DNA from: Flammeovirgaceae bacterium
GTDB lineage: Bacteria > Bacteroidota > Bacteroidia > Cytophagales > Cyclobacteriaceae
Reading direction: 5' to 3'
Length of the DNA: 64,000 bases
Assembly (NCBI GenBank): GCA_027487845.1
Contig: JAIYCV010000041.1
Location: 1-64,000, forward strand
The notes below the pieces were generated by a model. It did no database searches, was not told the origin of the DNA, and saw only the letters and a program-made list of their open reading frames with translations. Positions 28,664 to 37,742 of this stretch are shown here, one piece after another. Made by a program: the position numbers and the translations under genes. How positions within the stretch are numbered: position 1 is the first letter of the stretch; every line of letters begins with the position of its first letter.

Positions 28664-28750
28664 GGATAGTAGTTTAGACTGTAAAACTACACTTTTGAAA
28701 TCAGTGATAAACTAGGAGCTAAAAAAATTATTGGGGAGGGAATAAAAAAT

Positions 28751-28841
28751 GGCAAACTAACATCGCACCGCTACAACCGCTTACCCTTGCTACCTTCCGA
28801 TCCTGGGGGAGTTCAGCAGGAGCTGGTCGTGCCAGTTTGCC
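28751..28841 (-). ncRNA. ffs: Bacterial small signal recognition particle RNA
   Basis: GGCAAACTGGCACGACCAGCTCCTGCTGAACTCCCCCAGGATCGGAAGGTAGCAAGGGTAAGCGG...GTTTGCC; hallmark SRP domain IV sequence and closing ends. Confidence 0.92.
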
Positions 28842-28878
28842 GATGCAAATATACAGAAAAATTGGTTTGCTGAACTTT

Positions 28879-29618: not shown

Positions 29619-29702
29619 GTCTTTTCTTTTACGATTAGTAACACCAAATTTAAGGTGCTAGTTATATAAAAGTAACAAAATGCAGAATGTTTTGGCTAAG
29701 AT

Positions 29703-29733
29703 TTTGGAAAGAGCAACTACTTCCTTATCATTG
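29703..29733 (+). promoter_or_regulatory. Predicted promoter upstream of THX: TTTG (29703-29706), 19-bp gap, TATCATTG (29726-29733)
   Basis: One mismatch to TAnnTTTG with canonical spacing. Confidence 0.55.
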
Positions 29734-29756
29734 CACCCTCAAAGTAAAATTAGCAA

Positions 29757-29948
29757 ATGGGTAAAGGAGACAAAAAGTCAAAAAAAGGCAAAATTTTCAT
29801 AGGTTCATATGGCAATTCTAGAAAAAGAGCCTCAAACAAGGCAAGTGTAGCTGTAAAAACTGCTCCTACGCCGGTAGTGGTAGAGGCGGTAGCTGAAGAG
29901 AAGCCAAAAGCAAAAAGAACAACCAAGAAAAAAGAAACAGCTGAATAG
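29757..29948 (+). CDS. 30S ribosomal protein THX
   Basis: MGKGDKKSKKGKIFIGSYGNSRKR. Confidence 0.92.
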   Translation: MGKGDKKSKKGKIFIGSYGNSRKRASNKASVAVKTAPTPVVVEAVAEEKPKAKRTTKKKETAE

Positions 29949-29950
29949 AA

Positions 29951-30007
29951 ATGAAAGCGTTTAGTTTTATAGCATGGTGGTGGCATCGTTCGGTTTTCGA
30001 TCGGTAA
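29951..30007 (+). CDS. trpL: trp operon leader peptide MKAFSFIAWWWHRSVFDR
   Basis: Three consecutive TGG codons at 29975-29983, stop at 30005-30007, terminator downstream, trpE next. Confidence 0.93.
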   Translation: MKAFSFIAWWWHRSVFDR

Positions 30008-30051
30008 GTGGCTATGTGAATAAAATAAGATTCAACTGAAAATTATACAAG

Positions 30052-30082
30052 CCGCCCCGATCACTCGGGGCGGTTTTTTTTT
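30052..30082 (+). terminator. trp attenuator terminator CCGCCCCGA-TCAC-TCGGGGCGG-T9; competing antiterminator 29999-30012 with 30051-30062
   Basis: 9-bp perfect stem and T-run; GATCGG (29999-30004) complements CCGATC (30057-30062), GTGGC complements GCCGC (one wobble). Confidence 0.9.
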
Positions 30083-30100
30083 GTTACGAATAACCCATTT

Positions 30101-31498
30101 ATGAAGTTTAGTTTTAAAACACGGTCAAAAAAGCTTCTGGCGGATACACTCACGCCAGTGAATATTTACCTCAAACTACGCGATGTTTTTGCGTCTAGTA
30201 TTTTACTGGAAAGCAGCGACTATCATGGTCATGAAAACAGCCTGTCGTTTATTTGCTGCGAATCTTTGGCTTCTTTTCAAGTGGCCAACGAACTCATCGA
30301 GATACGATTGCCAAATAAAACAAAAGAGATAAAACCGATCACTAAAAAAGGCCAGGTGCTTGACGAACTAGATTATTTTAGGAGCCTCTTTTCCATCGAG
30401 AAGTCTCATTCAAAATATATTTCATCGGGTCTTTTTGGTTATATGAATTATGATTCTGTCCGGTATTTTGAAGATATTCACTTGGACATTAAGGAACGAT
30501 TGATTCCCGACATCCTTTACAAAGTATATCGGTATGTCATAGTGATTGATCACTTTTCAAACGAACTTGTTTTATTTGAAAATCACCTAACTGACGATGA
30601 TAAATCTGGGTTGGAAAAATTGGAAAAGATCATATTCAGCAATCGATTTTCAACTTTTCCGTTTAAAGCAACTGAGAGTGAGGTTTTCAACTGGACCGAT
30701 CATGAGTTTGTAGATTTGGTAAAGAAGGGTATGAAGCACTGTTTTCGTGGAGATGTTTTTCAAATCGTGCTTTCGCGAAGGTTTAGTACTGGTTTTAAAG
30801 GAGATGAATTCAATATCTATCGCGCTTTGAGATCCATCAACCCATCTCCCTACTTATTCTATTTTGATTATGGGAACTTCAAACTGTTCGGATCATCTCC
30901 GGAGGCTCAAATTCAAATTAAAAATGACGAGGCAAGTATTTATCCGATTGCTGGAACCTTCAGAAGAACGGGAAATGATAAAGAAGATGGAGAGCTTGCG
31001 ACCCGGTTGAACGCTGATGAGAAGGAGAATGCTGAACATGTAATGCTGGTTGATTTGGCAAGAAATGACTTGAGCAGGGATTCATCGGAAGTCATAGTAG
31101 AAGTATTTAAGGAGACTCAATACTACTCGCACGTAATTCACTTAGTCTCTAAAGTCACTGGCAAATTGCGCGATGGTATTTCTTCTTTAAAATTGGCGGT
31201 TGATACGTTTCCGGCAGGTACTTTATCAGGCGCGCCAAAACACAACGCCATGAAACTAATCAATCAGTATGAAAATGTAAACAGGAGTTTTTACGGAGGT
31301 GCTATTGGCTATGTAGGCTTTAATGGCGATATAAACCAAGCGATTATGATTCGCACATTTTTAAGCAAGGATAACAAACTTATTTACCAAGCGGGTGCTG
31401 GTGTGGTGGCTAAGTCGGTGCCCGAAAATGAGTTGCAAGAGGTGAGCAATAAACTGGAAGCGTTGCGCAAGGCAATAAAAATGGCAGAAGAGATTTAG
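30101..31498 (+). CDS. trpE: Anthranilate synthase component I
   Basis: LMLVDLARNDLSRDS, GTLSGAPK. Confidence 0.97.
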   Translation: MKFSFKTRSKKLLADTLTPVNIYLKLRDVFASSILLESSDYHGHENSLSFICCESLASFQVANELIEIRLPNKTKEIKPITKKGQVLDELDYFRSLFSIEKSHSKYISSGLFGYMNYDSVRYFEDIHLDIKERLIPDILYKVYRYVIVIDHFSNELVLFENHLTDDDKSGLEKLEKIIFSNRFSTFPFKATESEVFNWTDHEFVDLVKKGMKHCFRGDVFQIVLSRRFSTGFKGDEFNIYRALRSINPSPYLFYFDYGNFKLFGSSPEAQIQIKNDEASIYPIAGTFRRTGNDKEDGELATRLNADEKENAEHVMLVDLARNDLSRDSSEVIVEVFKETQYYSHVIHLVSKVTGKLRDGISSLKLAVDTFPAGTLSGAPKHNAMKLINQYENVNRSFYGGAIGYVGFNGDINQAIMIRTFLSKDNKLIYQAGAGVVAKSVPENELQEVSNKLEALRKAIKMAEEI

Positions 31499-31536: not shown

Positions 31537-32106
31537 ATGACAAGAATAATAATAATAGATAACTACGATTCATTCACTTATAACCTGGTTCATATTATTA
31601 GGGAGCTAGGATTTGAGATGGATGTTTTTAGAAACGATAAAATTTCCGTTGATGAAGTTGCTGGCTATGATAAGATTATTTTGTCCCCAGGCCCAGGTAT
31701 TCCCGATGAGGCTGGAATTTTGAAATCTGTGGTGAAGCAATTAGGTTCTTCAAAAAGTATTCTTGGCGTTTGTTTGGGGCATCAAGGTATAGCAGAAGTT
31801 TATGGAGCGGAGCTTTTCAACATACCTTACGTACTACATGGCGTTACTTCACAGCTTCACGTACTAAATACAGGAGAAAAACTATTCAGAACGTTGCCGG
31901 TAAATTTTAACGTAACTCATTATCATTCCTGGGCTGTTAAGGCAGAGACCATTCCATCAGAATTAGAAGTAACGGCTGTAAACAAAGAAGGATTGGTAAT
32001 GGCTATCGCTCATAAAACATTGGATGTTCGAGGTGTCCAATTTCATCCGGAATCCATAATGACTGAGCATGGTAAAGCGATAATGAAAAACTGGATAACT
32101 CAATAG
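31537..32106 (+). CDS. trpG: Anthranilate synthase component II (glutamine amidotransferase)
   Basis: IDNYDSFTYNLVH, GVCLGHQ, VQFHPES. Confidence 0.97.
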   Translation: MTRIIIIDNYDSFTYNLVHIIRELGFEMDVFRNDKISVDEVAGYDKIILSPGPGIPDEAGILKSVVKQLGSSKSILGVCLGHQGIAEVYGAELFNIPYVLHGVTSQLHVLNTGEKLFRTLPVNFNVTHYHSWAVKAETIPSELEVTAVNKEGLVMAIAHKTLDVRGVQFHPESIMTEHGKAIMKNWITQ

Positions 32107-32170: not shown

Positions 32171-33163
32171 ATGAAAGAAATACTAAATGAATTAATAGAG
32201 CATCGGTCGCTGAGCAAAGAAACTGCCCGGAAGGTGTTGATTGATTTAGCTTCAGCCAAATACAATCAAAGTCAGATGAGCGCGTTTATGACGGTCTATA
32301 TGATGCGGGCAATTACTATTGATGAGCTTCAAGGCTTTCGCGATGCCATGTTAGAACTTTGTGTGCCAATTCGTTTTGATGCACCCGTTATGGATGTCTG
32401 CGGAACGGGCGGTGATGGCAAGAATACGTTCAATATTTCCACGTTGAGTTCGTTTGTCGTGGCAGCGGCCGGCCAGCCAGTCGCAAAACATGGCAACTAT
32501 GGTGTGTCATCAGTAAGCGGGTCATCCAACGTGCTGGAATATTTCGGTTACAAATTCACTAACGAGAAGGATCTTTTGGAGAAGAGCTTAGACAGAGCTA
32601 ATATATTTTTTATGCATGCACCATTGTTCCATCCGGCAATGAAGAATGTCGCTCCGATTCGAAAAGAGTTGGGAGTGAAAACATTTTTTAATATGCTCGG
32701 CCCAATGGTTAATCCAGCATTTCCGCCCAGGCAGTTGGCGGGCGTGTTTAGCCTTGAACTCGCACGACAGTATGGATATCTTTATCAACAAACTGACAAA
32801 GACTTTGTTATTTTACATGATATTCAAGGATATGACGAGATTTCGTTGACAGGTGCATTTAAAATATTTACTAATCAAGGTGAACATGTGTTAGAACCAG
32901 CGGATTTGGGATTGCCAGAAGTTCAATATGCTGAAATAAAAGGTGGGGCAACGGTGGCAGAGTCTGCTGAAATATTCATGAAGATACTAAGCGGGGCAGG
33001 AAGTGATTCGCAAAAAGCGGTGGTGATTGCCAATGCAGGCATGGCATTATATTGTGGCGATAGAAATTCTGGAATAGAAGTTGGTATGGCTCGTGCGAAA
33101 GAAGCACTCGAATCAAAAAAGGCGTTGGAAACATTTAAGAAACTAATAGATGTTGGGCAATAG
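32171..33163 (+). CDS. trpD: Anthranilate phosphoribosyltransferase
   Basis: DVCGTGGDGKNTFNIST, KHGNYGVSS. Confidence 0.97.
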   Translation: MKEILNELIEHRSLSKETARKVLIDLASAKYNQSQMSAFMTVYMMRAITIDELQGFRDAMLELCVPIRFDAPVMDVCGTGGDGKNTFNISTLSSFVVAAAGQPVAKHGNYGVSSVSGSSNVLEYFGYKFTNEKDLLEKSLDRANIFFMHAPLFHPAMKNVAPIRKELGVKTFFNMLGPMVNPAFPPRQLAGVFSLELARQYGYLYQQTDKDFVILHDIQGYDEISLTGAFKIFTNQGEHVLEPADLGLPEVQYAEIKGGATVAESAEIFMKILSGAGSDSQKAVVIANAGMALYCGDRNSGIEVGMARAKEALESKKALETFKKLIDVGQ

Positions 33164-33195: not shown

Positions 33196-34014
33196 TTGAT
33201 TATCATGAACATACTAGAGCAAATTATCGAGCATAAATACAAAGAAGTAGCAGAGCGCAAGAGCCTTTATCCTGTAAAGCTTTTAGAACAAAGCATTTAC
33301 TTTTCGACACCTTGTGTTTCGATGAAGAAGTATTTATTGCGCGAAGACAAATCGGGCATTATTGCCGAAATAAAGCGCAAGTCTCCTTCGAAGGGGCAAA
33401 TTAATCCCTATGTTTCTATAGAGCGCACTTCTCTTGGTTATATGCAGGCCGGGGCTTCGGCACTTTCTATTCTCACCGACAAACATTTTTTTGGCGGTAG
33501 TAATGATGACTTGACCATCGCTCGTCAATTTAACTTTTGCCCGTTGCTACGTAAAGATTTTGTGGTGGACGAATATCAAATTACAGAAGCCAAATCGATC
33601 GGTGCGGATGCGATACTCTTAATTGCAGCTGCGTTGGCTCCAGTGAGAGTAGTAGAATTGAACGCTTTTGCCCATTCGCTAGGATTGGAAGTGTTATTTG
33701 AAGTTCACAATGAAGATGAACTTTACAAAGAAGCAATTGAGCAAGTGGATATGGTAGGGGTCAATAATCGTGATTTAAAAACATTTGACGTGAATATTGA
33801 CATATCTAAACGGCTTTCCTCATTGATCCCTCAGCACACAGTGAAGGTTTCGGAAAGTGGAATATCAGATCCGGCCACCATCATTGAACTAAAACAGCTT
33901 GGCTACCGAGGTTTTTTAATGGGCGAAAATTTCATGAAGCATAGCCGGCCAGAAAAGGCTGCTAGCGATTTTATAAAGGAGTTAAAAGGACTTGAAGATA
34001 AGATAGGTGCGTAG
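33196..34014 (+). CDS. trpC: Indole-3-glycerol phosphate synthase
   Basis: IAEIKRKSPSKG, LRKDFVVDEYQ, VSESGI. Confidence 0.97.
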   Translation: MIIMNILEQIIEHKYKEVAERKSLYPVKLLEQSIYFSTPCVSMKKYLLREDKSGIIAEIKRKSPSKGQINPYVSIERTSLGYMQAGASALSILTDKHFFGGSNDDLTIARQFNFCPLLRKDFVVDEYQITEAKSIGADAILLIAAALAPVRVVELNAFAHSLGLEVLFEVHNEDELYKEAIEQVDMVGVNNRDLKTFDVNIDISKRLSSLIPQHTVKVSESGISDPATIIELKQLGYRGFLMGENFMKHSRPEKAASDFIKELKGLEDKIGA

Positions 34015-34648
34015 AGTTAAACAAGTAGCGATCAAAGTCTGTGGTATGAGAGATGCCACCAACATAAGGAAAGTCTCAGCATTGTGTCCAGATTATTTGG
34101 GCTTTATCTTTTACCCTAAATCAAAACGATATGTTGGAGATAATTTTGTTGTTCCTGAAATCCCAAACGCAATTACTAAAGTCGGGGTATTTGTCAACGA
34201 AAGTACAGATGTGATTTCGAGATTAGTTGAGAAATGTTCAATTGACCATGTGCAGTTGCACGGTGACGAGACACCTCTGCAATGCGATGAATTGAAGGCC
34301 CTGGGCTTCACAGTGATCAAAGCATTTGGCGTGTCAGAAGATTTTGATTTTAATGTGTTAAATCTGTACAAGAGTAGGTGCAATTATTTCTTGTTCGATA
34401 CCAAGGGGAAGAGTTATGGAGGAACAGGAAGATCGTTTGATTGGGACATTCTTCAAAAGTATGATCAGGAAGTCCCTTTCTTTTTGAGTGGAGGTTTATC
34501 GTTGGCCAATGCAGAAAATGCACTCAACATCAAATGGATGAATATTCATGCACTAGATGTTAATAGCAAATTTGAAATTGAGCCAGGTGTAAAAGATGTT
34601 GCCAAGCTTGATGAACTATTCAAATTACGAAAGGAAACTGTTATTTAA
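34007..34648 (+). CDS. trpF: Phosphoribosylanthranilate isomerase
   Basis: IKVCGMRD, LDVNSKFEIEPGVKD. Confidence 0.95.
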   Translation: MRRVKQVAIKVCGMRDATNIRKVSALCPDYLGFIFYPKSKRYVGDNFVVPEIPNAITKVGVFVNESTDVISRLVEKCSIDHVQLHGDETPLQCDELKALGFTVIKAFGVSEDFDFNVLNLYKSRCNYFLFDTKGKSYGGTGRSFDWDILQKYDQEVPFFLSGGLSLANAENALNIKWMNIHALDVNSKFEIEPGVKDVAKLDELFKLRKETVI

Positions 34649-34707: not shown

Positions 34708-35889
34708 ATGAAATTTGAAGTAGATGAATTTGGTTACTATGGTCAATTTGGTGGTGCATTCATACCGGAAATGCTTTATCCAAACGTGGAAGAGCTTCGC
34801 GAAAATTACCTTAATATAATTTACACGAAGTCGTTTCAAGAGGATTTTCATTACCTCTTGAAGGATTATGTTGGAAGACCGACACCTCTTTATTTTGCTT
34901 CTAGGTTGTCTGAACGGTACAACGCTAAAATTTACTTAAAGCGGGAAGATCTTTGTCATACAGGTGCTCACAAAATCAACAATACGATCGGTCAAATTTT
35001 ATTAGCGAAGCGATTAGGTAAAAAGAAGATAATTGCAGAGACAGGCGCTGGGCAGCACGGAGTTGCTACAGCCACAGTTTGTGCTCTCATGGGGATGGAG
35101 TGCATGGTGTATATGGGCAAGCACGACATGGAACGTCAGCGGCCAAATGTTGAACGCATGCGCATTCTTGGCACTAAGGTTATCCCCGCTCTCAGTGGAA
35201 GTATGACCTTGAAGGATGCAACTAACGAAGCCATGAGGCATTGGATTAACAACCCAACCGATACTCATTATATTATCGGATCGGTTGTTGGGCCTCATCC
35301 TTATCCCGACATTGTAGCAAGGTTTCAGTCGGTAATTAGTGAAGAAATAAAAAAGCAATTAATTGAGAAAGAGGGTAATCCTTTTCCCGACTATGTAATT
35401 GCTTGTGTTGGAGGTGGAAGCAACGCGGCCGGAGCATTTTATCATTATTTAAATGATGAGCATGTGAATTTGATAGGAGTTGAAGCTGCCGGAAAAGGAA
35501 TTGACTCGGGTGACTCTGCGGCCACCACTGCATTGGGCAAACCGGGCGTACTTCACGGAAGTAAGACAATTTTGATGCAAACAGAGGATGGTCAAGTGGT
35601 AGAACCATATTCAATTTCAGCTGGCTTAGACTACCCTGGCATTGGCCCAATGCATGCGCATTTGTTTGATGTTGGACGAGTGCAGTTTATGAGTGCTACA
35701 GATGATGAGGCTATGAATGCGGGGATTGAACTCAGTCGCACGGAAGGCATTATTCCAGCTATTGAAACAGCCCATGCAGTAGCGATGCTTGGCAAGATGG
35801 AGTTTGCCAAGGATGACGTTGTGGTGATCAATTTATCTGGACGCGGGGATAAGGATTTGGAGACGTATATAAAGTGGGGGAAGTATTAG
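34708..35889 (+). CDS. trpB: Tryptophan synthase beta subunit
   Basis: [21 protein letters not shown]. Confidence 0.98.
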
Positions 35890-35943
35890 TTGGTGGTTGG
35901 TAGTAAATTATTGTTCGACCTAAAACCCAAAATTTCAGTTGTT

Positions 35944-36714
35944 ATGCCATTAAATAAGTTATTCGAAGCCAAGAAATCAAACATTTTATCAGTCTATTTC
36001 ACTGCGGGTTTTCCGATGTTGGAAGATACAATCATCATTGCGAAGCATTTGGAAGATGCAGGTGCCGATATCATCGAGATTGGAATTCCATTTTCTGACC
36101 CGATTGCCGATGGGCCTGTAATCCAGGAAAGTAATAATATTGCTTTGGCCAATGGAATGACGGTGAAGAAGTTATTAGCTCAAGTTGTGGAGATCAGGAA
36201 AGAGGTATCGATACCAATCATTTTAATGGGTTATATTAATCCTGTTCTTCAATACGGGATAGAGCGGTTTTGCAAAGAGGCATCTACCGCTGGCGTTAAT
36301 GGACTTATCTTGCCCGATATGCCCATGGATGAATATCAAAAAACATTTAGATCCTTGTTCGACAAACATGGACTGAGTAATACGTTCTTGATTTCACCGA
36401 CCACTTCGGATGCACGCATCAAAAGAATAGACGATGCAACAACCTCGTTTATTTATGCGGTTTCTTCTTCTAGCACCACAGGCGCTAAAAGCGGATTTGC
36501 CGATGAGCAACTAGCTTATTTTGCTAAACTTAAGGCAATGAATTTAAAAAATCCGTTCCTAGTAGGCTTCGGAATTTCAAATCACCAATCGTTTTCTAAA
36601 GTCTGCGAATATGGAGCTGGAGCTATCGTAGGGAGTGCATTCATAACCATTTTAAAAAACAGTAAGGACTTAAAAACTGACATTCAATTGTTTGTGAAAT
36701 CAATCGTTCAATAA
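35944..36714 (+). CDS. trpA: Tryptophan synthase alpha subunit (ORF extends to 35890)
   Basis: IEIGIPFSDPIADGPVIQ; likely start MPLNKLFEAKKSN. Confidence 0.96.
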   Translation: MPLNKLFEAKKSNILSVYFTAGFPMLEDTIIIAKHLEDAGADIIEIGIPFSDPIADGPVIQESNNIALANGMTVKKLLAQVVEIRKEVSIPIILMGYINPVLQYGIERFCKEASTAGVNGLILPDMPMDEYQKTFRSLFDKHGLSNTFLISPTTSDARIKRIDDATTSFIYAVSSSSTTGAKSGFADEQLAYFAKLKAMNLKNPFLVGFGISNHQSFSKVCEYGAGAIVGSAFITILKNSKDLKTDIQLFVKSIVQ

Positions 36715-36731
36715 TTCATTAATTTGAAACT

Positions 36732-37742
36732 ATGATTCTTCAATTACAGCCCGCCATCACTTCCTCCGAAAAACAATCGATCGTTGGCACACTTGCTAGG
36801 TTGGGGTTTAAATCCAATGAAGTAACTACGCAGCGTGCTCATTATCTCGTTGGTATAGGCAAGAAAGAAATTGATATTCGGCAATTGGGCAATCTTCCTG
36901 GTATTCAAGACATACATCATGTTTCCGATGAATACAAATTAGTATCAAGGAAATGGAAAATAGCACATTCGGTCATAGATTTAGGTGATGGAGTCATAAT
37001 CGGAGATGGTTCATTGTCTATAATGGCTGGGCCGTGTTCAATTGAAACAGAAGCTCAAGTAGATGCAACGATTGACCACTTGCTAAAAAGTGGTATTCGA
37101 ATTATGAGAGGGGGAGTTTTTAAACCAAGAAGTTCGCCCTATGCCTTTCGTGGTTTAGGTATTGAGGGGTTGAAAATGTGGCACACCAAAGCGCGAGCCG
37201 CGGGAATAAAAATAGTGAGTGAAGTAATGCAAGTAAGTCAGATTGCCGACATGTATGATTACGTGGATATATTTCAGGTGGGGGCGCGAAATACTCAAAA
37301 TTTTAATTTACTGGATGAATTGGGTAAAGTAGATAAGGCGGTAATGATTAAGAGAGGTATTTCAGGAACAATCGAAGAATTACTTTCATCGGCCGAATAT
37401 GTTTTTAGTGGTGGAAATGAGAAACTCATGCTGTGCGAGCGCGGGATAAGAACCTACGAGAGAGCGAGTAGAAACACGATGGATATCAATGCGATACCTA
37501 TTCTAAAGGAGAAATCACATTTGCCCGTAGTAGCTGATCCATCTCATGGAATTGGCATTCGCGATTTTGTGGAACCAGTTGCTTTGGCGGCTTTGGTAGC
37601 TGGAGCCGATGGCATTATTTATGAGACGCATCAACGGCCTGAGGAAGCCTTTAGTGATGGTCAACAGACATTAGATTTTGTGGAATCCGCTACCCTGATA
37701 AAAAAACTAAAAAAATTGGAGGAGGTGGTCAGACAATTTTAA
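36732..37742 (+). CDS. aroF: 3-deoxy-7-phosphoheptulonate synthase with N-terminal ferredoxin-like domain
   Basis: MAGPCSIETEAQ, RGGVFKPRSSPYAFRGLG, DPSHGIG. Confidence 0.95.
   Translation: MILQLQPAITSSEKQSIVGTLARLGFKSNEVTTQRAHYLVGIGKKEIDIRQLGNLPGIQDIHHVSDEYKLVSRKWKIAHSVIDLGDGVIIGDGSLSIMAGPCSIETEAQVDATIDHLLKSGIRIMRGGVFKPRSSPYAFRGLGIEGLKMWHTKARAAGIKIVSEVMQVSQIADMYDYVDIFQVGARNTQNFNLLDELGKVDKAVMIKRGISGTIEELLSSAEYVFSGGNEKLMLCERGIRTYERASRNTMDINAIPILKEKSHLPVVADPSHGIGIRDFVEPVALAALVAGADGIIYETHQRPEEAFSDGQQTLDFVESATLIKKLKKLEEVVRQF

Follow-up and report, generated by a model that had tools for sequence, protein, structure and literature searches.

The stretch of 64,000 nucleotides analysed here (the window) carries, in our reading, a ribosome-mediated trp transcription attenuator that is built onto the end of bTHX, the gene of the 30S ribosomal protein THX. 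Taking together its anatomy, its conservation and covariation in relatives, the gene context and the positions of the predicted promoters, we estimate the probability of this reading at about 0.8. The attenuator precedes trpEGDCFBA and a DAHP synthase gene.

Results

Anatomy of the leader region

A short open reading frame with tandem Trp codons precedes the trp biosynthesis operon, and an intrinsic terminator, whose stem-loop reads CCGCCCCG-ATCACT-CGGGGCGG, sits between this leader ORF (trpL) and the first structural gene (Table 1). The first-pass annotation had located the leader, its three TGG codons and stop codon, both antiterminator arms, the terminator and the T9 run, and all of these positions proved to be exact when checked against the sequence. 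It had omitted the bTHX gene ending at 29948 and the 1:2 hairpin; according to the fold, this hairpin consists of an outer stem (29972-29978 with 30011-30017) and an inner stem (29985-29988 with 29998-30001).

Table 1. Features of the bTHX-trp region, in positions of the window
Feature	Position	Strand	Basis
Predicted bTHX promoter: TTTTG (29702-29706), 19-nt spacer, TATCATTG (29726-29733)	29702-29733	+	Conserved signature
Predicted bTHX transcription start	near 29738	+	
bTHX, 30S ribosomal protein THX, 63 aa	29757-29948	+	NCBIfam TIGR04560
trpL leader ORF, MKAFSFIAWWWHRSVFDR and stop	29951-30007	+	Sequence check; kept in relatives
Leader start ATG	29951	+	Sequence check
Three tandem Trp codons (TGG)	29975-29983	+	Sequence check
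1:2 (protector) hairpin	about 29972-30017	+	Fold and covariation in relatives
Region 2, antiterminator 5' arm, carries the leader stop codon	29999-30012	+	Folding, pairing tests
Leader stop TAA	30005-30007	+	Sequence check; within region 2
Region 3, antiterminator 3' arm, also terminator 5' arm and loop	30051-30062	+	Folding, pairing tests
Intrinsic terminator: stem-loop 30052-30073, T9 30074-30082	30052-30082	+	Sequence and folding
trpE	30101-31498	+	Pfam PF00425, PF04715
trpG (glutamine amidotransferase)	31537-32106	+	Pfam PF00117, operon position
trpD	32171-33163	+	Pfam PF00591, PF02885
trpC	33205-34014	+	Pfam PF00218
trpF	34007-34648	+	Pfam PF00697
trpB	34708-35889	+	Pfam PF00291, operon position
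trpA (true start may be further downstream)	35890-36714	+	Pfam PF00290
DAHP synthase	36732-37742	+	Pfam PF00793

The bTHX gene and the predicted promoters

The assignment of bTHX is based on its match to the NCBIfam model (E 1.4e-12; 47.4 bits, cut-off 26); its score against Pfam Thx PF17070 was slightly under the cut-off, and it is the sole THX match in its own genome. Relatives were collected with the window TrpE as query (80 loci from named genomes, plus loci from the family and the class of the window), and in 59 distinct loci bTHX was found directly before trpL. The gap ranged from -4 to 25 nt with a median of 3, it was at most 10 nt in 53 of the 59 loci, and four had a one-base overlap. 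Seven coupled loci (L024, L027, L097, L138, L139, L140, L148) were missed by the bTHX motif search and were assigned by eye. The window, with only 2 nt between the bTHX stop codon and the leader ATG, shows the overlapping or very closely spaced stop and start codons of a coupled pair. Based on this spacing, translation of trpL is likely coupled to that of bTHX, though closeness is in itself no proof of coupling.

One clade of 56 rows in the TrpE tree (SH-aLRT support 100), which comprises Chryseolinea and relatives, contains every one of the 54 coupled rows; of the two clade rows without coupling, one is cut by a contig end (L092) and the other is a long branch (L165). Since the coupled rows are confined to this one clade, the arrangement probably had a single origin. 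In the uncoupled genomes where bTHX could be located, it was either far from trpE or on a different contig; by-eye inspection of eight such genes revealed, in six, a hairpin resembling a terminator immediately behind the stop codon.

In flavobacteria the -7 box, TAnnTTTG, occupies positions -12 to -5 (PMC9723704). A TAnnnTTG box was recognized upstream of bTHX in all 59 coupled loci, 16-26 nt from the ATG, accompanied by a -33 TTG in 53 of them, and shuffled sequences gave 15 of 2950. The full promoter signature was absent from the 100 nt before trpL in each of the 59 loci, the window included. This conserved promoter sequence suggests that bTHX and trpL are likely co-transcribed. The first-pass annotation had regarded the element as a textbook attenuator; this holds for its anatomy and does not extend to its start, where no promoter-like site separates bTHX from the leader and the ATG almost touches the preceding gene.

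In the uncoupled loci, both promoter elements were present directly before trpL in 45 of 67 cases (shuffled, 29 of 3350). The 5'UTR predicted for these transcripts, with starts derived from the position of the box and not from mapped ends, did not exceed 5 nt in 23 of the 45 and 10 nt in 33. Outside the coupled clade trpL is thus predicted usually to have its own promoter and often to be near-leaderless, with the start 0-10 nt before the ATG. Such a leader would be unusual, since leaderless mRNAs and short 5'UTRs are rare genome-wide in these species: only 5.5% of the mapped mRNAs of F. psychrophilum are leaderless (PMC9723704), 87% of the predicted F. johnsoniae transcripts have leaders longer than 10 nt, and in B. 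thetaiotaomicron about 3.7% of the 5'UTRs are shorter than 10 nt.

The same promoter positions bear on the strongest competing explanation, according to which the attenuator stands alone: a non-consensus promoter inside bTHX would drive it, ribosomes would initiate at trpL on their own, and genome compaction alone would explain why bTHX is so near. The own promoters of trpL in other Bacteroidota are in line with it, as are six loci where bTHX lies 39-57 nt upstream and a box with at most one mismatch stands in between. However, no coupled locus has the full signature before trpL while every one has the box before bTHX, and the distance between the two genes is held at a few nucleotides; we consider a stand-alone attenuator unlikely.

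Alternative folds of the leader RNA

The antiterminator and the terminator are mutually exclusive, and the leader stop codon is placed so that a ribosome there would cover region 2. When the RNA left free by a ribosome stalled on the Trp codons was folded before the terminator 3' arm is available (29990-30064), the antiterminator was formed at -20.3 kcal/mol, which was equalled by none of 200 shuffles; GAUCGG (29999-30004) and GUGGCU are paired in it with 30050-30062, and the pairing of region 2 with region 3 is exactly the one claimed in the first-pass annotation. Its other claim, that the terminator forms when region 2 is covered, was also borne out, as the fold of 30019-30076 yielded the terminator alone (-23.8 kcal/mol, z -6.2). 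For the duplex of region 2 with the terminator the calculated energy was -20.4 kcal/mol (z -3.7 relative to shuffles of region 2). The terminator is preferred at equilibrium (-27.5 versus -21.3), therefore the choice must fall during transcription, as in known attenuators. In ribosome-free RNA lacking the terminator 3' arm, the predicted equilibrium fold prefers 2:3 over 1:2; the protector hairpin of the window may thus be a weak one.

Conservation and covariation in relatives

The nearest relatives are Cytophagales, hence the genome had rightly been called Bacteroidetes-like. A Trp-rich mini-ORF whose Trp codons are near-adjacent, with an intrinsic terminator after it, was detected in 133 of 159 distinct trpE-upstream regions and in none of 1590 dinucleotide shuffles of them. 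The count is a strict one: about 15 attenuators with interrupted tails (e.g. CTTCTTATTTT) were missed by the T4-tail rule and, like four displaced attenuators, were scored as misses. Most of the remaining regions hold the same element, with the T-tail interrupted or the element displaced by an inserted ORF. Judged from these sequences, the trp attenuator is common to most sampled Bacteroidota.

In 78% of the loci, region 2 formed a better pairing with the 5' arm and loop of the terminator than its shuffled versions did (p<=0.04). A foreign region 3 paired as well with region 2 for a median of 14% of partners, in a test that is weak because related loci share motifs. The antiterminator motif varies by lineage and both sides switch together: the pairs seen are GATCGG/CCGATC (group of the window), GTGAACAGC/GCTGTTCAC, GTCGTGA/TCACGAC (flavobacteria) and GGAAGT/ATTTCC (Algoriphagus). 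In flavobacterial loci (e.g. L065, L074, L079) the 5' arm of the terminator is not the main partner of GTCGTGA, which pairs with the terminator loop and the initial bases of the 3' arm.

Covariation across relatives, proposed at the outset as a check, was found for all three helices. Within the clade of the window, the number of two-sided changes was above that of any shuffle for the 1:2 helix (group A, 44 versus a shuffle maximum of 24; group B, 37 versus 21) and for the 3:4 helix (31 versus 22, and 20 versus 11); for the 2:3 helix this was so in group A (11 versus 9), and in group B this helix hardly varies. These tallies count sequences (cells), not independent events, and are inflated by related loci. 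The terminator is kept in relatives, and WWW is present in 63 of 66 coupled leaders. Together with the operon content, the conserved leader and terminator and the covarying alternative helices support the interpretation as trp attenuation put forward in the first-pass annotation.

The A-WWW-H residues are kept in most of the coupled clade, which might indicate an arrest peptide of the TnaC type, acting inside the ribosome and not through the supply of Trp-tRNA. RNA pairing can account for this conservation without a role of the peptide, since the His codon CAY behind WWW forms pairs with the GUG in region 2, as do the codons ahead of WWW with the stretch downstream of region 2; moreover, the flanking residues vary outside the clade (NTWWWS, NMWWWS, IWWRF), and an arrest peptide appears very improbable. 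Least credible of all is a plain bTHX terminator next to a chance mini-ORF with no trp regulation, which would end the bTHX mRNA just as the terminators right after bTHX genes elsewhere would, but which is at odds with the well-placed mini-ORFs counted above against the shuffles, with three mutually exclusive helices that covary, and with attenuators occurring where bTHX is absent.

Two further arrangements were seen upstream of trpE. In Marivirga (L040) two trp attenuators stand in tandem within 300 nt upstream of the gene, and both comprise a separate WW-type mini-ORF and a separate terminator. In L060 (2471-2590, 2639-2935), and similarly in L068, L073 and L076, a small ORF stands between the attenuator and trpE; by eye, its putative product resembles GIY-YIG endonuclease-like proteins.

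Discussion

For the attenuator attached to bTHX we propose the following course of events. Transcription would start before bTHX, as the conserved promoter sequence suggests, and run into the attenuator; ribosomes finishing bTHX, or new ones, would start on trpL 2 nt further on, as the spacing suggests. When Trp-tRNA is short, a ribosome would stall on the three UGG codons and open the 1:2 hairpin, region 2 could then pair with region 3, the terminator would not form and trpEGDCFBA would be transcribed. When tryptophan is plentiful, a ribosome at the stop codon would cover region 2 and the 3:4 terminator would end the RNA. The product in this case would be a short bTHX-trpL mRNA, thus the attenuator would double as the terminator of bTHX. 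We lean slightly towards the view that in the Chryseolinea-like clade the attenuator has lost its own promoter, is read mainly by ribosomes coming from bTHX and also ends the ribosomal-protein mRNA as described; with transcription from the bTHX promoter followed by attenuation, both a ribosomal-protein promoter and the shortage of Trp-tRNA would determine trp output.

If this is true, attachment to bTHX would give a phylum that lacks Shine-Dalgarno sites a means of loading ribosomes onto a leader ORF, as an alternative to the near-leaderless trpL that is predicted for its other members. Two possible loading routes for leader ORFs are suggested: the RNA may be near-leaderless, or the ORF may be joined to the end of a ribosomal-protein gene. 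The latter route offers a testable link between the transcription of ribosome genes and tryptophan supply. By its sequence features, the classical trp attenuator, in a form absent from Rfam, is the common arrangement in this phylum.

Attenuators of this kind are already known. The trp leader of E. coli is equipped with a promoter and a Shine-Dalgarno site of its own. In the same species pheST has a separate promoter as well, and pheM is not contiguous with rplT. The E. coli trpL (Rfam Trp_leader) shares with the window the tandem Trp codons, the stop codon in region 2, three exclusive helices and a terminator before trpE, whereas the window has no Rfam trp leader match, no visible promoter of its own, another antiterminator sequence and a start codon directly behind bTHX. 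No Rfam leader family reached its gathering score in the window, where only weak, chance-level matches were obtained at E up to 10. The E. coli pheM attenuator, which lies behind rplT (PMC5371410), is a partial precedent, being a leader-peptide attenuator placed directly after the gene of a ribosomal protein, but it regulates a tRNA synthetase and not trp genes.

A leaderless trpL is known in Sinorhizobium meliloti (PMC7298713); it is likewise a trp attenuator with a leader ORF independent of a Shine-Dalgarno site, and it resembles the near-leaderless trpL predicted in other Bacteroidota. The window and its clade do not belong to this leaderless type, having no promoter signature within 100 nt before trpL, and the leader ORF of the window would be internal to the bTHX transcript instead of standing at the RNA 5' end.

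A link of bTHX to trpE was not found in the open-access papers searched, and the titles and abstracts listed there contained no case of coupling or reinitiation combined with attenuation. Comparative work by Vitreschak and colleagues in 2004 reportedly predicted some attenuators in Bacteroidetes/Chlorobi. Leader-peptide attenuation before amino-acid operons is already suspected in the same phylum, in Flavobacterium psychrophilum, also without Rfam hits (PMC9723704); the main text there names pheA and hisG, not trp, and the section concerned mentions no ribosomal-protein gene.

Other candidate elements were seen in the genome of the window. Upstream of hisG (L200, about 1120-1240) there is a likely his leader ORF, MNRKNSLHHHHLLSNLVGETML and stop, and behind it come a hairpin, GGCTTGCC...GGCAAGCC, and a T-run. 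Near ilvD (L201, about 247-400) a likely branched-chain leader ORF, MMIVSNNDKFNLSTSSVVISVIILRKPGQ and stop, is followed by a CCGCCCCG...GGGGCGG terminator ahead of an aminotransferase-like gene. The window also contains a Bacteroidales small SRP RNA (Rfam RF04183, 78 bits) at 28746-28849 on the reverse strand.
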